Assembly (NCBI GenBank): GCA_902515155.1
Contig: CABXTT010000013.1
Coordinates: 1-32,806, forward strand
Origin: an uncultured SAR86 cluster bacterium
Lineage (GTDB): Bacteria > Pseudomonadota > Gammaproteobacteria > Magnimaribacterales > D2472
Length of the DNA stretch: 32,806 nucleotides
Direction of reading: 5' to 3'
Shown: positions 8,469-31,653 of the stretch, in pieces
How the letters are laid out: each line of letters begins with the position of its first letter
Numbering within the stretch: the first letter of the stretch is position 1
Made by a program: the position numbers and the translations under genes
Notes under the pieces: generated by a model
The model's input: only the letters and a program-made list of their open reading frames with translations
The model's database searches: none
Told to the model about the DNA's origin: nothing

Positions 8469-8547
8469 ATATAGGATATTATTATAAATTAGTTGAGCGA
8501 TGTTAACTCAACTTAATAGTTATTTACATATATTTAAAGGGAATACC

Positions 8548-9597
8548 GTGGAATTCAACATTTTTAAGACAGTAAGGGGTTATTTTTCGAATGATCTTTC
8601 TATAGATCTAGGTACTGCAAACACCCTTATTTATACTAAAGATGTTGGAATTGTTCTTGATGAGCCTTCTGTGGTTGCTATTAGAGAATCCAGGGGCCAG
8701 AAAACAGTTGTTGCAGTTGGAACAGAAGCAAAAAAAATGCTTGGTAGAACCCCTGGAAACATAAAAGCTATCAGACCATTATCTGAAGGAGTTATCGCTG
8801 ACTTCCAGGTTACTGAAAAAATGCTTCAGCATTTTATAGCCAAAGTTCATGAACAAAGATTTATCAAACCAAGTCCAAGGGTGCTTGTGTGTGTTCCCTG
8901 TAGATCAACTCAAGTTGAAAGGAGAGCAATTAGAGAATCCGTTTTGGGTGCTGGAGCACGTGACGTAAAATTAATAGAAGAGCCTATGGCCGCAGCAATT
9001 GGTGCTGGCTTACCTGTTGAGGAAGCTAGTGGGAATATGGTTGTAGATATTGGTGGTGGCACATCTGAAATCGCTATTCTTTCTCTAAATGGAGTTGTCT
9101 ATTCAGAATCGGTAAAAATTGGTGGAGATAAAATGGATGAATCTATAACTTCCTGGATAAGAAGAAATTATGGGTGCGTTATTGGAGAATCAACTGCTGA
9201 AAAAATTAAATATACAATTGGATGTGCAACACAAGAATCAGAAAAACTTGAGATGTCTATAACAGGTAGAAACCTTGCAGAAGGAATTCCCGAAACGTTT
9301 ACCATTAATAGTGAACAAATTTTTGATGCAATGAAAGATCCCTTATATGGAATAGTCAGAGCAATTAGGAATGCTTTAGAGCTTTCACCTCCAGAGTTAG
9401 CTGCTGATATTGCTGAAAGAGGAATAGTTCTTACAGGTGGAGGGGCTTTGATGAGAGACTTAGATAAATTAATATCAAGCTCAACAGGAATACCAGTAAT
9501 TGTTGCCGAAGATCCATTAACTTGCGTAGCAAGAGGAGGGGGTCAAGCTCTCGAAATTATGGACAAGTATAATATTGATCTTCTTTCTTCTGAGTAA
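8548..9597 (+). CDS. mreB: Rod shape-determining protein MreB (actin homologue)
   Basis: [72 protein letters not shown] start at 8548 preferred (AAAGGG RBS upstream) over the track's ATG at 8500. Confidence 0.97.
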
Positions 9598-25836: not shown

Positions 25837-26451
25837 ATGATTTTATATTCAGATAGAGACGATCACTATAGTCAAAGAGTTAGGATTGTCTTGGCTGAGA
25901 AAGATATTACTGCTGAGATAAAAGAATCTAGACCTGAAGATGCACCAGAGGATATTTTATCTATTAGCCCTTATCATAGATTGCCTATTTTAGTTGATAG
26001 AGATTTAGCAGTGCATGATCCTTCGGTAATGATGGAATACCTTGATGAAAGGTTTCCTCATCCGCCTCTGTTGCCCGTTTATCCAGTTGCAAGAGCTAAT
26101 AGTAGAACACTAATGTTAAGAATTGATAGAGAGTGGTGTCCTATGGTAGATGCCTTAATATTAGCGGACCTACCAGAAAAAGAACTTATTAAGCTTAGAG
26201 AAGAACTTCTTCATGAAATATCCTCAATAGCCCCAACTTTCAAGGAATTTAAATACTTCATGAGTGATGAATTTACCCTTGTAGATTGTTGCTTTGCTCC
26301 AATCTTATGGAGACTTCCCTCAATAGGAATAAGATTGCCAGTTAACAGGCATCTAAAACCACTTATAGACTATCAAAAAGATATATTTAAAAGGCCTGGT
26401 TTTCTTGACAGCCTTTCTTCACTTGAAAGAGATCTTAAGAACGATCAGTAA
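25837..26451 (+). CDS. sspA: Stringent starvation protein A (GST-like)
   Basis: GST N domain LYSDRDDHYSQRVRIVLAEKDI, DPSVMMEYLDERFPHPPLLPVYPVARA; follows petABC as in other gammaproteobacteria. Confidence 0.93.
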   Translation: MILYSDRDDHYSQRVRIVLAEKDITAEIKESRPEDAPEDILSISPYHRLPILVDRDLAVHDPSVMMEYLDERFPHPPLLPVYPVARANSRTLMLRIDREWCPMVDALILADLPEKELIKLREELLHEISSIAPTFKEFKYFMSDEFTLVDCCFAPILWRLPSIGIRLPVNRHLKPLIDYQKDIFKRPGFLDSLSSLERDLKNDQ

Positions 26452-27604
26452 AGTTATTTAAAGTTACCCTCCATAATGGAAGGTCTCTTTTAATACATTC
26501 ACTATTCTTAAAAACTGCTGGACTAGTTTCAAAAATAACATCTATAGCATTTACGTTTAAACGTTTTAATTTTTCTGCAGTTAACAAATCATTTATTAAA
26601 GCTTTGTTGTATTCGTCATTAAGATTAAGAATTTCTTTTTTATTAGAAACTTGTTTAAAAAAATAATCATGAGAAGGTATTAGCATACCTTCGAAATCAT
26701 TTAATTCTTTTATGTTGGAAACATTCAAAATAATCTCGCTTGTTGAATAAAAATCAGTGTTTATTAAGTAACTTCTAAATATTGGAACTAAAAATTTACC
26801 CAAATCATAGTCAAGTAAAAAATAAATTTTATCAAAGTCTTTTTTTACTCTTGGATTATTCTCTAATTTGATACTTCTATCCAATGACTGAATATAATTA
26901 AATCTTTTGGTGCTTGAATCAATATTTAAAGTTTGTTCAGCAAACCCTTCATAATTATTATTATCAATTTGCAAATAATTTGCATCTGGATATCTTTCTT
27001 TCAGACTGTCTACAGTATCTTTAAACTGAGCCATATATATAACAATTACGTCTTTTTCATAAAGTTTGTCAGAAAACAGAGAAGTTTCGATCAAATCTTT
27101 TTGATCATTGAGAAATGTTTTACAAAAACTTATAAGATTAGACTGTAAGAGATTGTTCTTAACTTTTTTTCCATTGTTTTCTTCAAATGAAATATTAAAA
27201 CTCGGACTATGCTCAAAACTAGATTCTATGATGTATTCTTTATTTTTTTTACTAGTTATATAACTTATATTAATCGACTCAAGAGCATTAATTTTTTTGT
27301 TAGTTTGAATAGTTTTTGAAATATTTCCAATAAATTCTTTTTTTATATAATTGTTATCAATATGAGACAAAACCAGGTCTATATCACTTTTTTTTACATT
27401 TTTATAAGTAAATAATTTCTCTAGATCATTCACAACTTTATCTCTATCGACCTTTGCGGCTAACTCTTTTTTATTTAACATCTTTGATAATGTCGATTGA
27501 TTTTCATCATTATTTACATCTATATTTTTATATGATGAAGTAGAGGTGCATCCAGATATAATAAGAATCAGGATTAATGAAATAAATGTTAAGCTATCTT
27601 TCAT
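26435..27604 (-). CDS. LpoA/LppC-like penicillin-binding protein activator lipoprotein (short form)
   Basis: Lipobox LIISGCTS; C-terminal region similar in layout to LppC; divergent from rsmI as E. coli lpoA is. Confidence 0.6.
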   Translation of the reverse strand: MKDSLTFISLILILIISGCTSTSSYKNIDVNNDENQSTLSKMLNKKELAAKVDRDKVVNDLEKLFTYKNVKKSDIDLVLSHIDNNYIKKEFIGNISKTIQTNKKINALESINISYITSKKNKEYIIESSFEHSPSFNISFEENNGKKVKNNLLQSNLISFCKTFLNDQKDLIETSLFSDKLYEKDVIVIYMAQFKDTVDSLKERYPDANYLQIDNNNYEGFAEQTLNIDSSTKRFNYIQSLDRSIKLENNPRVKKDFDKIYFLLDYDLGKFLVPIFRSYLINTDFYSTSEIILNVSNIKELNDFEGMLIPSHDYFFKQVSNKKEILNLNDEYNKALINDLLTAEKLKRLNVNAIDVIFETSPAVFKNSECIKRDLPLWRVTLNNFTDRS

Positions 27605-27621
27605 CTATAATTTGTTAAATT

Positions 27622-28437
27622 ATGTTAAATTTAATATCAACACCAATTGGTAATATAAATGATATCTCACTAAGAGCAATTGATGTTCTAAAAAATGCAG
27701 ATTATATTTTTGCAGAAGACACTAGAAGAACAAATAAACTTCTTCAGTTTATAGATGTAAAAAATAAATCCAAAGCTTTTCATGAGCATAACGAAGACAA
27801 AGCAACCAGTTACGTAATAAGTTTATTAAAAAAAGAGGATATCAATATTGTACTTGTTTCTGATGCTGGGACGCCAACAATATCTGATCCAGGATATTTT
27901 TTAGTTCAAGAATGTATTAAAAACAATATTAAATTTTCATTAATTCCTGGGCCTTCATCGGTTTTAAATGCTTTAGTCTTATCTGGTTTGCCTACTTCAA
28001 GTTTTAGCTTTCTTGGATTTATCCCAAAAAAGTTAAATCAAAAGAAGGTATTTTTTAGCGAATTAAAATATGAAAAACATACTATTGTTGTTTTTGAATC
28101 TGCAAAAAGAGTTAAAAACACATTAGAGCTTCTTAAGAGTGAATATTCAGCAAATAAGAATATAGCAGTTTGTAGAGAGATGACTAAAATTTATGAGAAT
28201 ATTGACAGAGGAACAATATCTGAAATTCTGTCTAAAGTTAACAATAAAAAAATCACATTAAAAGGTGAATTCGTATTAGTTATTGAGCCATTTTCATACA
28301 CAAAATTTAACTTCTCTATTAATAAAAAAATTAAAAAAGCATTTTTAGAACAAATGCCTGCAAAAGATGCTGCAAAATTGATATCTCTTTTAACAAATGA
28401 CAACAAAAGGGATATTTATAAACAATTAATAGATTAA
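27622..28437 (+). CDS. rsmI: 16S rRNA (cytidine(1402)-2'-O)-methyltransferase
   Basis: STPIGNINDISLRAIDVLKNADYIFAEDTRRTNKLL; LVSDAGTPTISDPGYFLV; PGPSSVLNALVLSGLPTSSFSFLGFIPKK. Confidence 0.97.
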   Translation: MLNLISTPIGNINDISLRAIDVLKNADYIFAEDTRRTNKLLQFIDVKNKSKAFHEHNEDKATSYVISLLKKEDINIVLVSDAGTPTISDPGYFLVQECIKNNIKFSLIPGPSSVLNALVLSGLPTSSFSFLGFIPKKLNQKKVFFSELKYEKHTIVVFESAKRVKNTLELLKSEYSANKNIAVCREMTKIYENIDRGTISEILSKVNNKKITLKGEFVLVIEPFSYTKFNFSINKKIKKAFLEQMPAKDAAKLISLLTNDNKRDIYKQLID

Positions 28438-28460: not shown

Positions 28461-28466
28461 ACATAT

Positions 28467-28797
28467 GAGTTGGTTGGATGATCGCTGGCATTGCTAGAGG
28501 AAAGTCCGGACTTCATAGAGCAGGGCGCCAGGTAACACCTGGGAGACGCAAGTCTACGGAAAGTGCAACAGAAAATATACCGCCAATTTTTATTGGTAAG
28601 GGTGAAAAGGTGGGGTAAGAGCCTACCGCTTGAATGGAGACATTCAGGGCATTGTAAACCCCAGCCTGAAGCAAGACCAAATAGAAATCCTTTAAAGTTG
28701 CTCGCTTAGGGTTTGGGTAGGTTGCTAGAGTATTATGGCAACATAATATCGAGATAGATGATCATCTTTTACAGAATCCGGCTTACAGACCAACTCA
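28467..28797 (+). ncRNA. rnpB: RNase P RNA, class A
   Basis: P1 pairing gagttggt...accaactc at the ends; conserved GAGGAAAGTCCGGACTTC, GCAGGGCGCCAGGTAACACCTGGG, AGTGCAACAGAAA, GGTAAGGGTGAAAAGGTGGGGTAAGAGCCTACCG, ACAGAATCCGGCTTACAG; between rsmI and mraZ. Confidence 0.97.
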
Positions 28798-28818
28798 TTT
28801 CTTTTTTTGACTATTTTT

Positions 28819-28858
28819 AAAGTGCGAAAAAGTGTGTAAATGTGTTGCAAAGTGTGTA
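28819..28858 (+). repeat. Four tandem 10-bp direct repeats, candidate MraZ-binding boxes
   Basis: AAAGTGCGAA|AAAGTGTGTA|AATGTGTTGC|AAAGTGTGTA; GTG cores at 28822, 28832, 28842 and 28852, exact 10-bp period. Confidence 0.8.
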
Positions 28859-28873
28859 AAAAGCCTTTATATT
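28845..28873 (+). promoter_or_regulatory. Candidate sigma70 promoter of mraZ: TTGCAA-N17-TATATT
   Basis: TTGCAA 28845-28850, 17-nt spacer, TATATT 28868-28873; predicted start at or next to the ATG at 28881. Confidence 0.6.
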
Positions 28874-28880
28874 TTAAAGC

Positions 28881-29348
28881 ATGTTTGGATTTAATACAGT
28901 TTCGCTAGACAAAAAGGGGAGATTAGCTATTCCTGCGAAGTATCGAGCTCAGTTAATTGAGAATAAAGAGTCTAAAATTGTTATAACTAAAGATCCTCAA
29001 TATCCATCATTAAAAATATATCCTGGCTCACAATGGCAGATAATTGCCTCAAAACTTGAATCTCTTCAAGGACTTGATCCTATAGTAAGAAATCTTCAAT
29101 GGACCATATTAGGGAATGCAAGCGTCATTGATTTTGACGCAACAGGAAGGATGTTGGTTCTTATTCCCTCTGAACTAAGAAAGTATGCTGATATCAAAGA
29201 CGAAAAACAGATTTCATTAATAGGCATGGGTAATAAGTTTGAAATATGGAATGTAAACAATTGGGAAATGAGGCAAACAGGTGGATCATTGTCAACAGAG
29301 ATTTTAGATGTTGTACTTCCAGAAAGCATTAAATCAATGTCATTTTAA
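28881..29348 (+). CDS. mraZ: Transcriptional regulator MraZ
   Basis: MFGFNTVSLDKKGRLAIPAKYRAQL and FDATGRMLVLIPSELRKYADI, the two SpoVT/AbrB-like repeats with the DxxGR signature. Confidence 0.96.
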   Translation: MFGFNTVSLDKKGRLAIPAKYRAQLIENKESKIVITKDPQYPSLKIYPGSQWQIIASKLESLQGLDPIVRNLQWTILGNASVIDFDATGRMLVLIPSELRKYADIKDEKQISLIGMGNKFEIWNVNNWEMRQTGGSLSTEILDVVLPESIKSMSF

Positions 29349-29361
29349 AAGGGGATAAATA

Positions 29362-30471
29362 ATGAACTTTGAAGTTATAGGTCAAGCAATCGAAAATGCA
29401 AAGATTAAAGTTGTAGGCGTTGGTGGTGCTGGCGGTAATGCAGTTATTCATATGATTAATCACAATATTGAGGGAGTAGATTTTATTTGTGCTAATACAG
29501 ATACTCAAGCTTTATCTGCTGCAGATGGAGCAATTACTTTAAAACTAGGCAACGGTCTTACCAAAGGTTTAGGTGCGGGAGCAAATCCAGATGTTGGAAG
29601 AAAAGCAGCTGAAAGCGATCGAGGAGCAATAGAAGAGCTTTTAACTGGTGCTGACATGATTTTTATAACAGCTGGTATGGGTGGCGGAACAGGAACTGGT
29701 GCGGCTCCAGTAATTGCATCAATTGCAAAAGAAATGGGAGCATTGACTGTTGCAGTTGTTACAAAACCATTTAAATTTGAAGGCAAAAAGAGGATGACAG
29801 CAGCTGAGAAAGGCTTGGCTTCATTAGTTGAAGAGGTAGACAGCTTAGTGACAATACCTAATCAAAAATTGTATGAGATACTCGGCGAAGATACGGCCAT
29901 GCAAGATGCATTTGCAAAAGCAGATGACGTACTTAAGGGCGCAGTTCAGGGTATTTCTGACATCATTATGAAGAAAGGACATATCAATGTTGACTTTGCT
30001 GATGTTAAAACTGTTATGTCTGAAAAAGGAATAGCAATGATGGGAACAGGAAGAGCTAGCGGAAAAAATAGAGCGGAAGCTGCAGCCACCCAAGCCGTAA
30101 GAAGTGAATTATTAGAAGACATCAACTTAAAAAATGCTAGAGGCGTTCTTATAAATATAACCGCTGCAAAGCCTACACTTGGAGATCAAACAGAAGTTGC
30201 AGATATTGTTGAAGAAATTGTTCATGAAGATGCAAATATTATTTATGGTCTTGTTTATGACGAAAGCGTTGATGATGATTTGTTAGTTACTATTGTAGCC
30301 ACAGGTGTTGATCAAAGAGCTCCTACATTAGTAATAGACAATCAACCATCCATTCAATTAAATCCAGTAGGATTAAAAAAGGATGAACCTATTCAGAAAG
30401 CTGGCACATCGTCTGCAGCGGAAATTGATTTCCTTGATGTGCCAACTTTTATGAGAAAACAAGTAGACTAA
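29362..30471 (+). CDS. ftsZ: Cell division protein FtsZ
   Basis: VGVGGAGGNAVIHMI, CANTDTQAL, tubulin signature GMGGGTGTGAAPVIA, C-terminal conserved peptide IDFLDVPTFMRKQ; RBS AAAAGGGG. Confidence 0.99.
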   Translation: MNFEVIGQAIENAKIKVVGVGGAGGNAVIHMINHNIEGVDFICANTDTQALSAADGAITLKLGNGLTKGLGAGANPDVGRKAAESDRGAIEELLTGADMIFITAGMGGGTGTGAAPVIASIAKEMGALTVAVVTKPFKFEGKKRMTAAEKGLASLVEEVDSLVTIPNQKLYEILGEDTAMQDAFAKADDVLKGAVQGISDIIMKKGHINVDFADVKTVMSEKGIAMMGTGRASGKNRAEAAATQAVRSELLEDINLKNARGVLINITAAKPTLGDQTEVADIVEEIVHEDANIIYGLVYDESVDDDLLVTIVATGVDQRAPTLVIDNQPSIQLNPVGLKKDEPIQKAGTSSAAEIDFLDVPTFMRKQVD

Positions 30472-30472
30472 T

Positions 30473-31366
30473 ATGCTTCACTTTCCAGTACTACTGGAAG
30501 AGTCTTTAAATTTCCTCATCCATAAAAATAATGGTAACTTCATTGATTGCACTTATGGACGGGGTGGGCATTCCAAATCCATACTAAAAAAAATTTCAAA
30601 CGAATCTCATCTGACTTCATTTGATAAAGATCTTGAAGCGTTTGAGGATGCCTTAACAATAAATGATAGTAAATTTACGCCAATACATGATTCATTTAAT
30701 AGACTTCAAAAATACTTCAAAAACAGAACTGTAGATGGAATTTTTTATGATCTAGGAACTTGCTCTACCCATTTTGATGACGATTCTCGAGGCTTTAGTT
30801 TTAGAAACAATGGCCCACTAGATATGAGATTTAATACAACGTCAGGCAATCCCCTTAGCGTATGGATTAATAAAGCTACACAAGATGAGATTATGGAAAT
30901 ATTATATAAATATGGTGATGAAAAACATGCAAAATTAATCTCAAAATCAATTATTAAAAAGCGAGAAATTAAAAAACTTAAAACTACAAAGCAACTCTCA
31001 AGTATCATCGAGGAAATTTATCCTGAAAAAAGAAAAAAGATACATCCAGCTACAAAATCTTTTCAAGCCTTTAGAATTTTAGTAAATGATGAACTAAATC
31101 AATTGAGAGAGTCGCTTGAGCAAGCAAGCCAAATTATTAAAAAAGACGGAATTATTGTAGTAATTTCATTTCACTCACTTGAAGACAATATAGTGAAGAA
31201 TTTTTTCAGACCAAGTATTAAAAATTTCCCAAAAGATATTCCACTTAATTCAATTGAAAACAAAGATTTTAAATGTATAGCAAAAAAAATAAGACCATCA
31301 AAAAATGAAATTGAAAAAAATGCGAGGTCAAGAAGTGCAATTATGAGAGTTTTTAAAAAAATATGA
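30473..31366 (+). CDS. rsmH: 16S rRNA (cytosine(1402)-N4)-methyltransferase
   Basis: HFPVLLEESLNFL, FIDCTYGRGGHSKSIL, GIFYDLGTCSTHFDDDSRGFSFRNNGPLDMRF, IVVISFHSLEDNIVKNFF. Confidence 0.97.
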   Translation: MLHFPVLLEESLNFLIHKNNGNFIDCTYGRGGHSKSILKKISNESHLTSFDKDLEAFEDALTINDSKFTPIHDSFNRLQKYFKNRTVDGIFYDLGTCSTHFDDDSRGFSFRNNGPLDMRFNTTSGNPLSVWINKATQDEIMEILYKYGDEKHAKLISKSIIKKREIKKLKTTKQLSSIIEEIYPEKRKKIHPATKSFQAFRILVNDELNQLRESLEQASQIIKKDGIIVVISFHSLEDNIVKNFFRPSIKNFPKDIPLNSIENKDFKCIAKKIRPSKNEIEKNARSRSAIMRVFKKI

Positions 31367-31653
31367 TGAATAAGCTTCAATACTCATTGTTAAGCATAAT
31401 GCTATTTTTAGTTTGTTTTCTTGCATTGGAACAAATAAAACTATCTTTTGAGATTAATAGATTGCATACAAATCAAGAAAATTTACATGTTGAATACCAA
31501 AATTTTAAAGATTCAAATCTTAAATTAATCACTCAATTTCATACAGAAAATTCTCCGGCCATGATTGAGAGACAGGCAAAAGAAGATTTAGGTATGGTTA
31601 AGCAAAAAGCAAAAAAAATTATTATCGAAAATCATAAAGATGAAAAAAATTAA
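31363..31653 (+). CDS. ftsL: Cell division protein FtsL
   Basis: 96 aa single-TM protein between rsmH and ftsI; C-terminal coiled coil and AKEDLGMVKQK; ATGA overlap with rsmH. Confidence 0.88.
   Translation: MMNKLQYSLLSIMLFLVCFLALEQIKLSFEINRLHTNQENLHVEYQNFKDSNLKLITQFHTENSPAMIERQAKEDLGMVKQKAKKIIIENHKDEKN

Follow-up and report, generated by a model that had tools for sequence, protein, structure and literature searches.

Results

The window, by which we mean the whole 32,806-nucleotide stretch of SAR86 DNA that was analysed, carries a small group of division genes headed by mraZ, with four phased GTG repeats between rnpB and mraZ. The features considered below are:

27622-28437: rsmI
28466-28801, + strand: rnpB, the upstream neighbour, outside the operator (Rfam RF00010, 319.7 bits)
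28819-28828, + strand: putative MraZ-box unit 1, AAAGTGCGAA, GTG at 28822
28829-28838, + strand: putative MraZ-box unit 2, AAAGTGTGTA, GTG at 28832, almost invariant among relatives
28839-28848, + strand: putative MraZ-box unit 3, AATGTGTTGC, GTG at 28842, overlapping the predicted -35 hexamer, with its end inside TTGCAA
28845-28850, + strand: predicted -35 hexamer TTGCAA (consensus scan, 17-bp spacer)
28849-28858, + strand: putative MraZ-box unit 4, AAAGTGTGTA, GTG at 28852, in the promoter spacer
28868-28873, + strand: predicted -10 hexamer TATATT (consensus scan), ending 7 nt before the ATG
28881-29348, + strand: mraZ, whose product is taken to be the cognate regulator (TIGR00242 in NCBIfam, PF02381 in Pfam; fold matching that of MraZ structures)
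29362-30471, + strand: ftsZ, placed second in the presumed operon (NCBIfam TIGR00065)
30473-31366, + strand: rsmH (mraW) (NCBIfam TIGR00006)
31363-31653, + strand: ftsL-like gene (NCBIfam FtsL models, weak matches below cut-off)

The array occupies positions 28819-28858 of the + strand, and the end of rnpB lies 17 bp upstream of it. The four GTG cores placed at 28822, 28832, 28842 and 28852 by a first-pass annotation of this DNA are indeed there, in exact 10-bp phase. The same annotation had fitted the units to the form AAAGTGTN3; units 2 and 4, and only these, are perfect AAAGTGT, but unit 1 reads AAAGTGC and unit 3 AATGTGT. The GTGC of unit 1 belongs to this species, as opposed to GTGT in most close relatives.

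On both strands of the 32.8-kb window we found no second run of at least three GTG at 10-bp spacing. Among 60 windows simulated with a first-order Markov model, three-unit runs occurred at a mean of 0.017 and four-unit runs at 0; when 150-bp upstream regions of the family were shuffled with their composition kept, three-unit runs appeared at about 5e-5 and four-unit runs never. The fourfold GTG pattern has a single match in the 1.02-Mb genome, namely the array before mraZ, and a wider MraZ regulon in this genome was rejected on that ground. Two-unit matches away from mraZ recur among relatives (G327, G341, G343, G344, G350, G312, G315, G317 and G320), as AGTGTTTTAAAGTGCT in family f157 and as AGTGTTTTAAAGTGTT in family f3 of the same order; they are possibly conserved coding sequence.

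Conservation of the array and its loss together with mraZ

We compared the locus with genomes, many of them incomplete, drawn from its own family (f1) and from the order and class to which that family belongs; the class is taken to be Gammaproteobacteria from its gene content and from the resemblance of its MraZ proteins to that of E. coli. Every one of the 93 family loci whose upstream region could be read has a phased array ahead of mraZ, so that the 10-bp phasing, which had been proposed as a check on the first-pass reading, proves to be conserved. The array spans about ten genera of family f1 and two further families of the order, f3 and f157, where it takes the form of AAAGTGTG arrays. 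In unit 1, compared across 45 relatives anchored on the promoter, GTG is kept in 98% and the A-run in 47-56%, which argues that GTG and not the A-tract is the kept feature.

Within the order, a two-unit pattern could be detected in 117 of the 137 genomes with mraZ versus 2 of the 39 genomes without it, and in all 69 family genomes checked the pattern stops 24-50 bp short of mraZ. A natural deletion is provided by family f2: rnpB is followed by ftsZ and rsmH, mraZ is absent, and the rnpB-ftsZ interval contains neither mraZ nor an array in the four genomes with a readable ftsZ start. Loss of mraZ was here accompanied by loss of the array.

We thus have GTG repeats at a 10-bp period directly upstream of the mraZ that heads the dcw genes, a cognate MraZ with both D-x-x-x-R motifs, and an array that is kept and lost with mraZ. 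The array is very probably an MraZ box, a docking site through which MraZ would control its own gene and ftsZ. The MraZ-box operator suggested by the first-pass annotation is in this way supported by sequence conservation and co-loss.

Predicted promoter, leader and translation start

The combination TTGCAA-17-TATATT at 28845-28873 agrees with consensus at 9 of 12 positions, and promoter-like sites in this stretch number two, compared with 0.6 expected from shuffles. Of 93 family loci, 45 share a TTGCA-N18-TATATTT arrangement, and 44 of these 45 have a -10 ending 6-7 nt before the ATG; the promoter calls are consensus-based, with no promoter above threshold in 41 of the 93. Units 1 and 2 come before the predicted -35, and the promoter spacer is taken up by unit 4. 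Unit 3 had been called degenerate, and AATGTGTTGC does deviate, but it looks so because it carries the start of the overlapping predicted -35 hexamer, TTGCAA.

Among class loci with a predicted promoter, 73 of 77 have a -10 that coincides with or precedes the first unit; among those of family f1, 44 of 52 have it beyond the downstream end of the array. Genus g181 of family f3 has TTGACA-17-TAAAGT followed by units in the leader, an arrangement that by eye is class-like. Since g181 resembles the class, the array-over-promoter arrangement of f1 is probably derived. In many class loci (e.g. L099-L128) the mraZ -10 is TATAGTGT, in 10-bp phase with the GTGG units that follow, and this -10 may double as the first MraZ unit.

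A Shine-Dalgarno motif ahead of mraZ was absent in 93 of 93 family loci; ftsZ is preceded by one in 87 of 91. The median energy of the anti-Shine-Dalgarno duplex is +0.4 kcal/mol for mraZ versus -6.6 kcal/mol for ftsZ. The predicted transcription start falls near 28880-28881. With the -10 ending 7 nt from the ATG and no Shine-Dalgarno motif, the mraZ mRNA is predicted to be leaderless.

Gene order

In family f1, ftsZ comes directly after mraZ and before rsmH, with ftsA about 14 kb away in most genomes. Families f3 and f157 share the order rnpB-mraZ-rsmH-(short genes)-ftsA-ftsZ-ftsI-like-murE-like-murF-like, in which the last three names were read from translations; ftsA and ftsZ stand there between the ftsL region and the ftsI-like gene. 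Comparison of these orders with each other and with that of f2 indicates that the division cluster was rearranged more than once within the order. Elsewhere in the window, mreB (8500-9597; PF06723, 474 bits) lies some 20 kb before the division genes. A lipoprotein-like open reading frame at 26435-27604 on the - strand, divergent from rsmI, gave no Pfam or NCBIfam match; it occupies what we take to be the place of lpoA in E. coli and may encode a divergent LpoA.

The MraZ protein

The identity of the 28881-29348 product as MraZ is secure. Its AlphaFold model has a mean pLDDT of 84, and the best PDB matches of this model are the MraZ proteins of M. pneumoniae and M. genitalium, including entry 9sz7, "MraZ in complex with 4 box promoter". 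The two D-x-x-x-R motifs are present as D10..R14 and D86..R90. Comparison of 100 full-length MraZ proteins from the order with 78 from the class revealed features that are fixed or nearly fixed in the order: Arg3 is missing, W74 replaces Arg75, M116 replaces Gln113, and two residues (M91-L92) are inserted directly after R90, the arginine of the second D-x-x-x-R motif.

The base after GTG

For the following counts, units overlapping a TATAGTG -10 were excluded. Across 85 other loci of the class, 247 of 260 units have G directly after GTG, and in none of these 85 loci does T at this position reach half of the units. T follows GTG in 288 of 316 units (91%) in family f1, in 23 of 24 in f3 and in 33 of 46 in f157. 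The first-pass remark that GTGT is unusual for a presumed gammaproteobacterium agrees with its rarity in the rest of the sampled class. Mutational pressure towards AT was rejected as the sole cause: 13 AT-rich class loci (below about 0.42 GC) retain G at almost every unit, so that base composition alone is inadequate to account for GTGT. Loss of Arg3 was likewise rejected as the sole determinant, because three class loci without Arg3 are mostly GTGG and Bacteroidota loci, which lack Arg3 as well, carry both bases (139 G, 57 T).

Discussion

Relation to known MraZ boxes

The MraZ box of the E. coli Pmra promoter was reportedly described by Eraso in 2014. The E. coli DNA upstream of mraZ, CAGTGGGAAATTGTGGGGCAAAGTGGGAAT, contains three GTG units (GTGGG) at exact 10-bp spacing, the third being AAAGTGGG. 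The SAR86 array shares with it GTG units at a 10-bp period just before mraZ, but has four units with GTGT or GTGC instead of three with GTGG. The E. coli array lies downstream of the -10, in the leader, whereas the SAR86 array lies over the -35 and spacer with no leader predicted; the gene next after mraZ is rsmH in E. coli and ftsZ in this window. In B. cenocepacia, PmraBc carries four repeats of 7 nt separated by 3-nt spacers, and EMSA showed that MraZ binds a fragment containing them (PMC7761207). These repeats resemble ours in number and 10-bp period, but they lie downstream of the -10 and overlap the transcription start, unlike the SAR86 array upstream of its predicted -10. An array downstream of the -10 with a GTGG core, as in E. 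coli and B. cenocepacia, does not describe this locus, where the predicted -10 is downstream of the array and no unit has GTGG.

The first-pass annotation set an "E. coli" box apart from a "Mollicutes" box, a distinction that finds no support, as both are one 10-bp GTG repeat: AAAGTGGG is one such unit, and according to PMC7761207 mycoplasmas share a conserved GTG repeat with B. subtilis and E. coli. Nor are four units special, as had been suggested. Among class loci, 43 of 89 show four or more strict units, and the first of these often overlaps the -10 (TATAGTGT); four are also found in B. cenocepacia and in the cryo-EM structure 9sz7, where M. genitalium MraZ is bound to a "4 box promoter".

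With the Mollicutes box, of consensus AAAGTG[T/G] (PMC8475190), the SAR86 array has in common the AAAGTGT found in its units 2 and 4, four boxes in the promoter and the presence of ftsZ in a short mraZ-led cluster; this comparison was made with the published consensus and the structure entry. A genome scan with M. genitalium MraZ as query matched Bacteroidota and one Pelagibacteraceae contig. The window MraZ is nearer to E. coli MraZ (38% identity) than to that of M. genitalium (about 27% by structural alignment), so that the GTGT form looks convergent, and Mollicutes MraZ is without the two-residue insertion found in the order. Common descent of the GTGT array with the Mollicutes form is unlikely, given that the MraZ protein is nearer to gammaproteobacterial ones. 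MraZ sites as such are already known; this one differs by its altered core base and shifted promoter position across this small-genome group.

Proposed mechanism and alternatives

We consider it likely that the array is the operator of mraZ-ftsZ-rsmH-ftsL, at which MraZ binding would lead to autorepression and feedback on FtsZ supply; binding, repression, leaderless transcription and co-transcription all enter this model as inferred steps. Neighbouring subunits of the MraZ oligomer would contact successive GTGs, one for each turn of the helix and all on the same side of the DNA. MraZ on units 3 and 4 would cover the -35 hexamer and the spacer, and because of this coverage bound MraZ should block RNA polymerase. 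The blocked polymerase would account for autorepression of mraZ and for feedback on the FtsZ supply. E. coli MraZ represses, as cited in PMC7761207 and PMC8475190, and mutation of mraZ in M. genitalium raises the levels of dcw genes (PMC8475190). Repression is thus the better supported sign but, as Neisseria elongata MraZ activates the first dcw genes (PMC9395523), we hold it, once binding is granted, to be highly likely instead of certain.

The N. elongata precedent also lends itself to a model with the same operator and opposite sign, in which MraZ on units 1 and 2 would activate the mraZ-ftsZ promoter. The position of these units upstream of the -35, where the class has its array after the -10, would suit an activator. 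We regard this as unlikely, since units 3 and 4 sit on the -35 and spacer, the usual position of a repressor, and MraZ of both E. coli and M. genitalium represses. That some other regulator binds the array and mraZ is adjacent by coincidence is conceivable insofar as MraZ binding is deduced from sequence, but very improbable given that the array co-occurs with mraZ and has the GTG/10-bp form seen at MraZ-bound sites in other bacteria.

Curvature can arise from A-runs spaced every 10 bp ahead of a promoter, and the array does contain such runs, which might bend the DNA or serve as an UP element without MraZ. The preference for GTG over A in unit 1 of 45 relatives weakens curvature as the main function; class loci retain GTG with varied flanks, and the array disappears together with mraZ, so that we assign this explanation an even smaller likelihood. 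A chance repeat, for which one could invoke the local base composition of about 31-33% GC and the nearby end of rnpB, is refuted by conservation over about ten family genera and two further families, as well as by uniqueness in the genome, the simulated windows and shuffles, and the absence of an array after rnpB where mraZ is gone (f2), and its probability is negligible.

Beyond autorepression by MraZ, we put forward a broader evolutionary proposal, to which we give less than even weight. The order may have recoded its operator from GTGG to GTGT and fixed changes in MraZ (no Arg3, R75W, the M91-L92 insertion after the second-motif arginine, and Q113M, with R and Q positions in E. coli numbering). 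One family may also have shifted the operator out of the leader to cover the -35, made its mraZ mRNA leaderless and brought ftsZ into second place, so that MraZ would directly meter FtsZ.

Implications

MraZ is among the most widespread bacterial transcription regulators, but how its DNA specificity and its place within promoters vary has been little mapped. With well over 100 genomes, this order provides a natural series whose families differ in core base, promoter position, mraZ loss and ftsZ position, and a possible link between the recoded core base and the fixed MraZ substitutions is directly testable. The arrangement described here suggests that in these small genomes the supply of FtsZ is tied to MraZ feedback.
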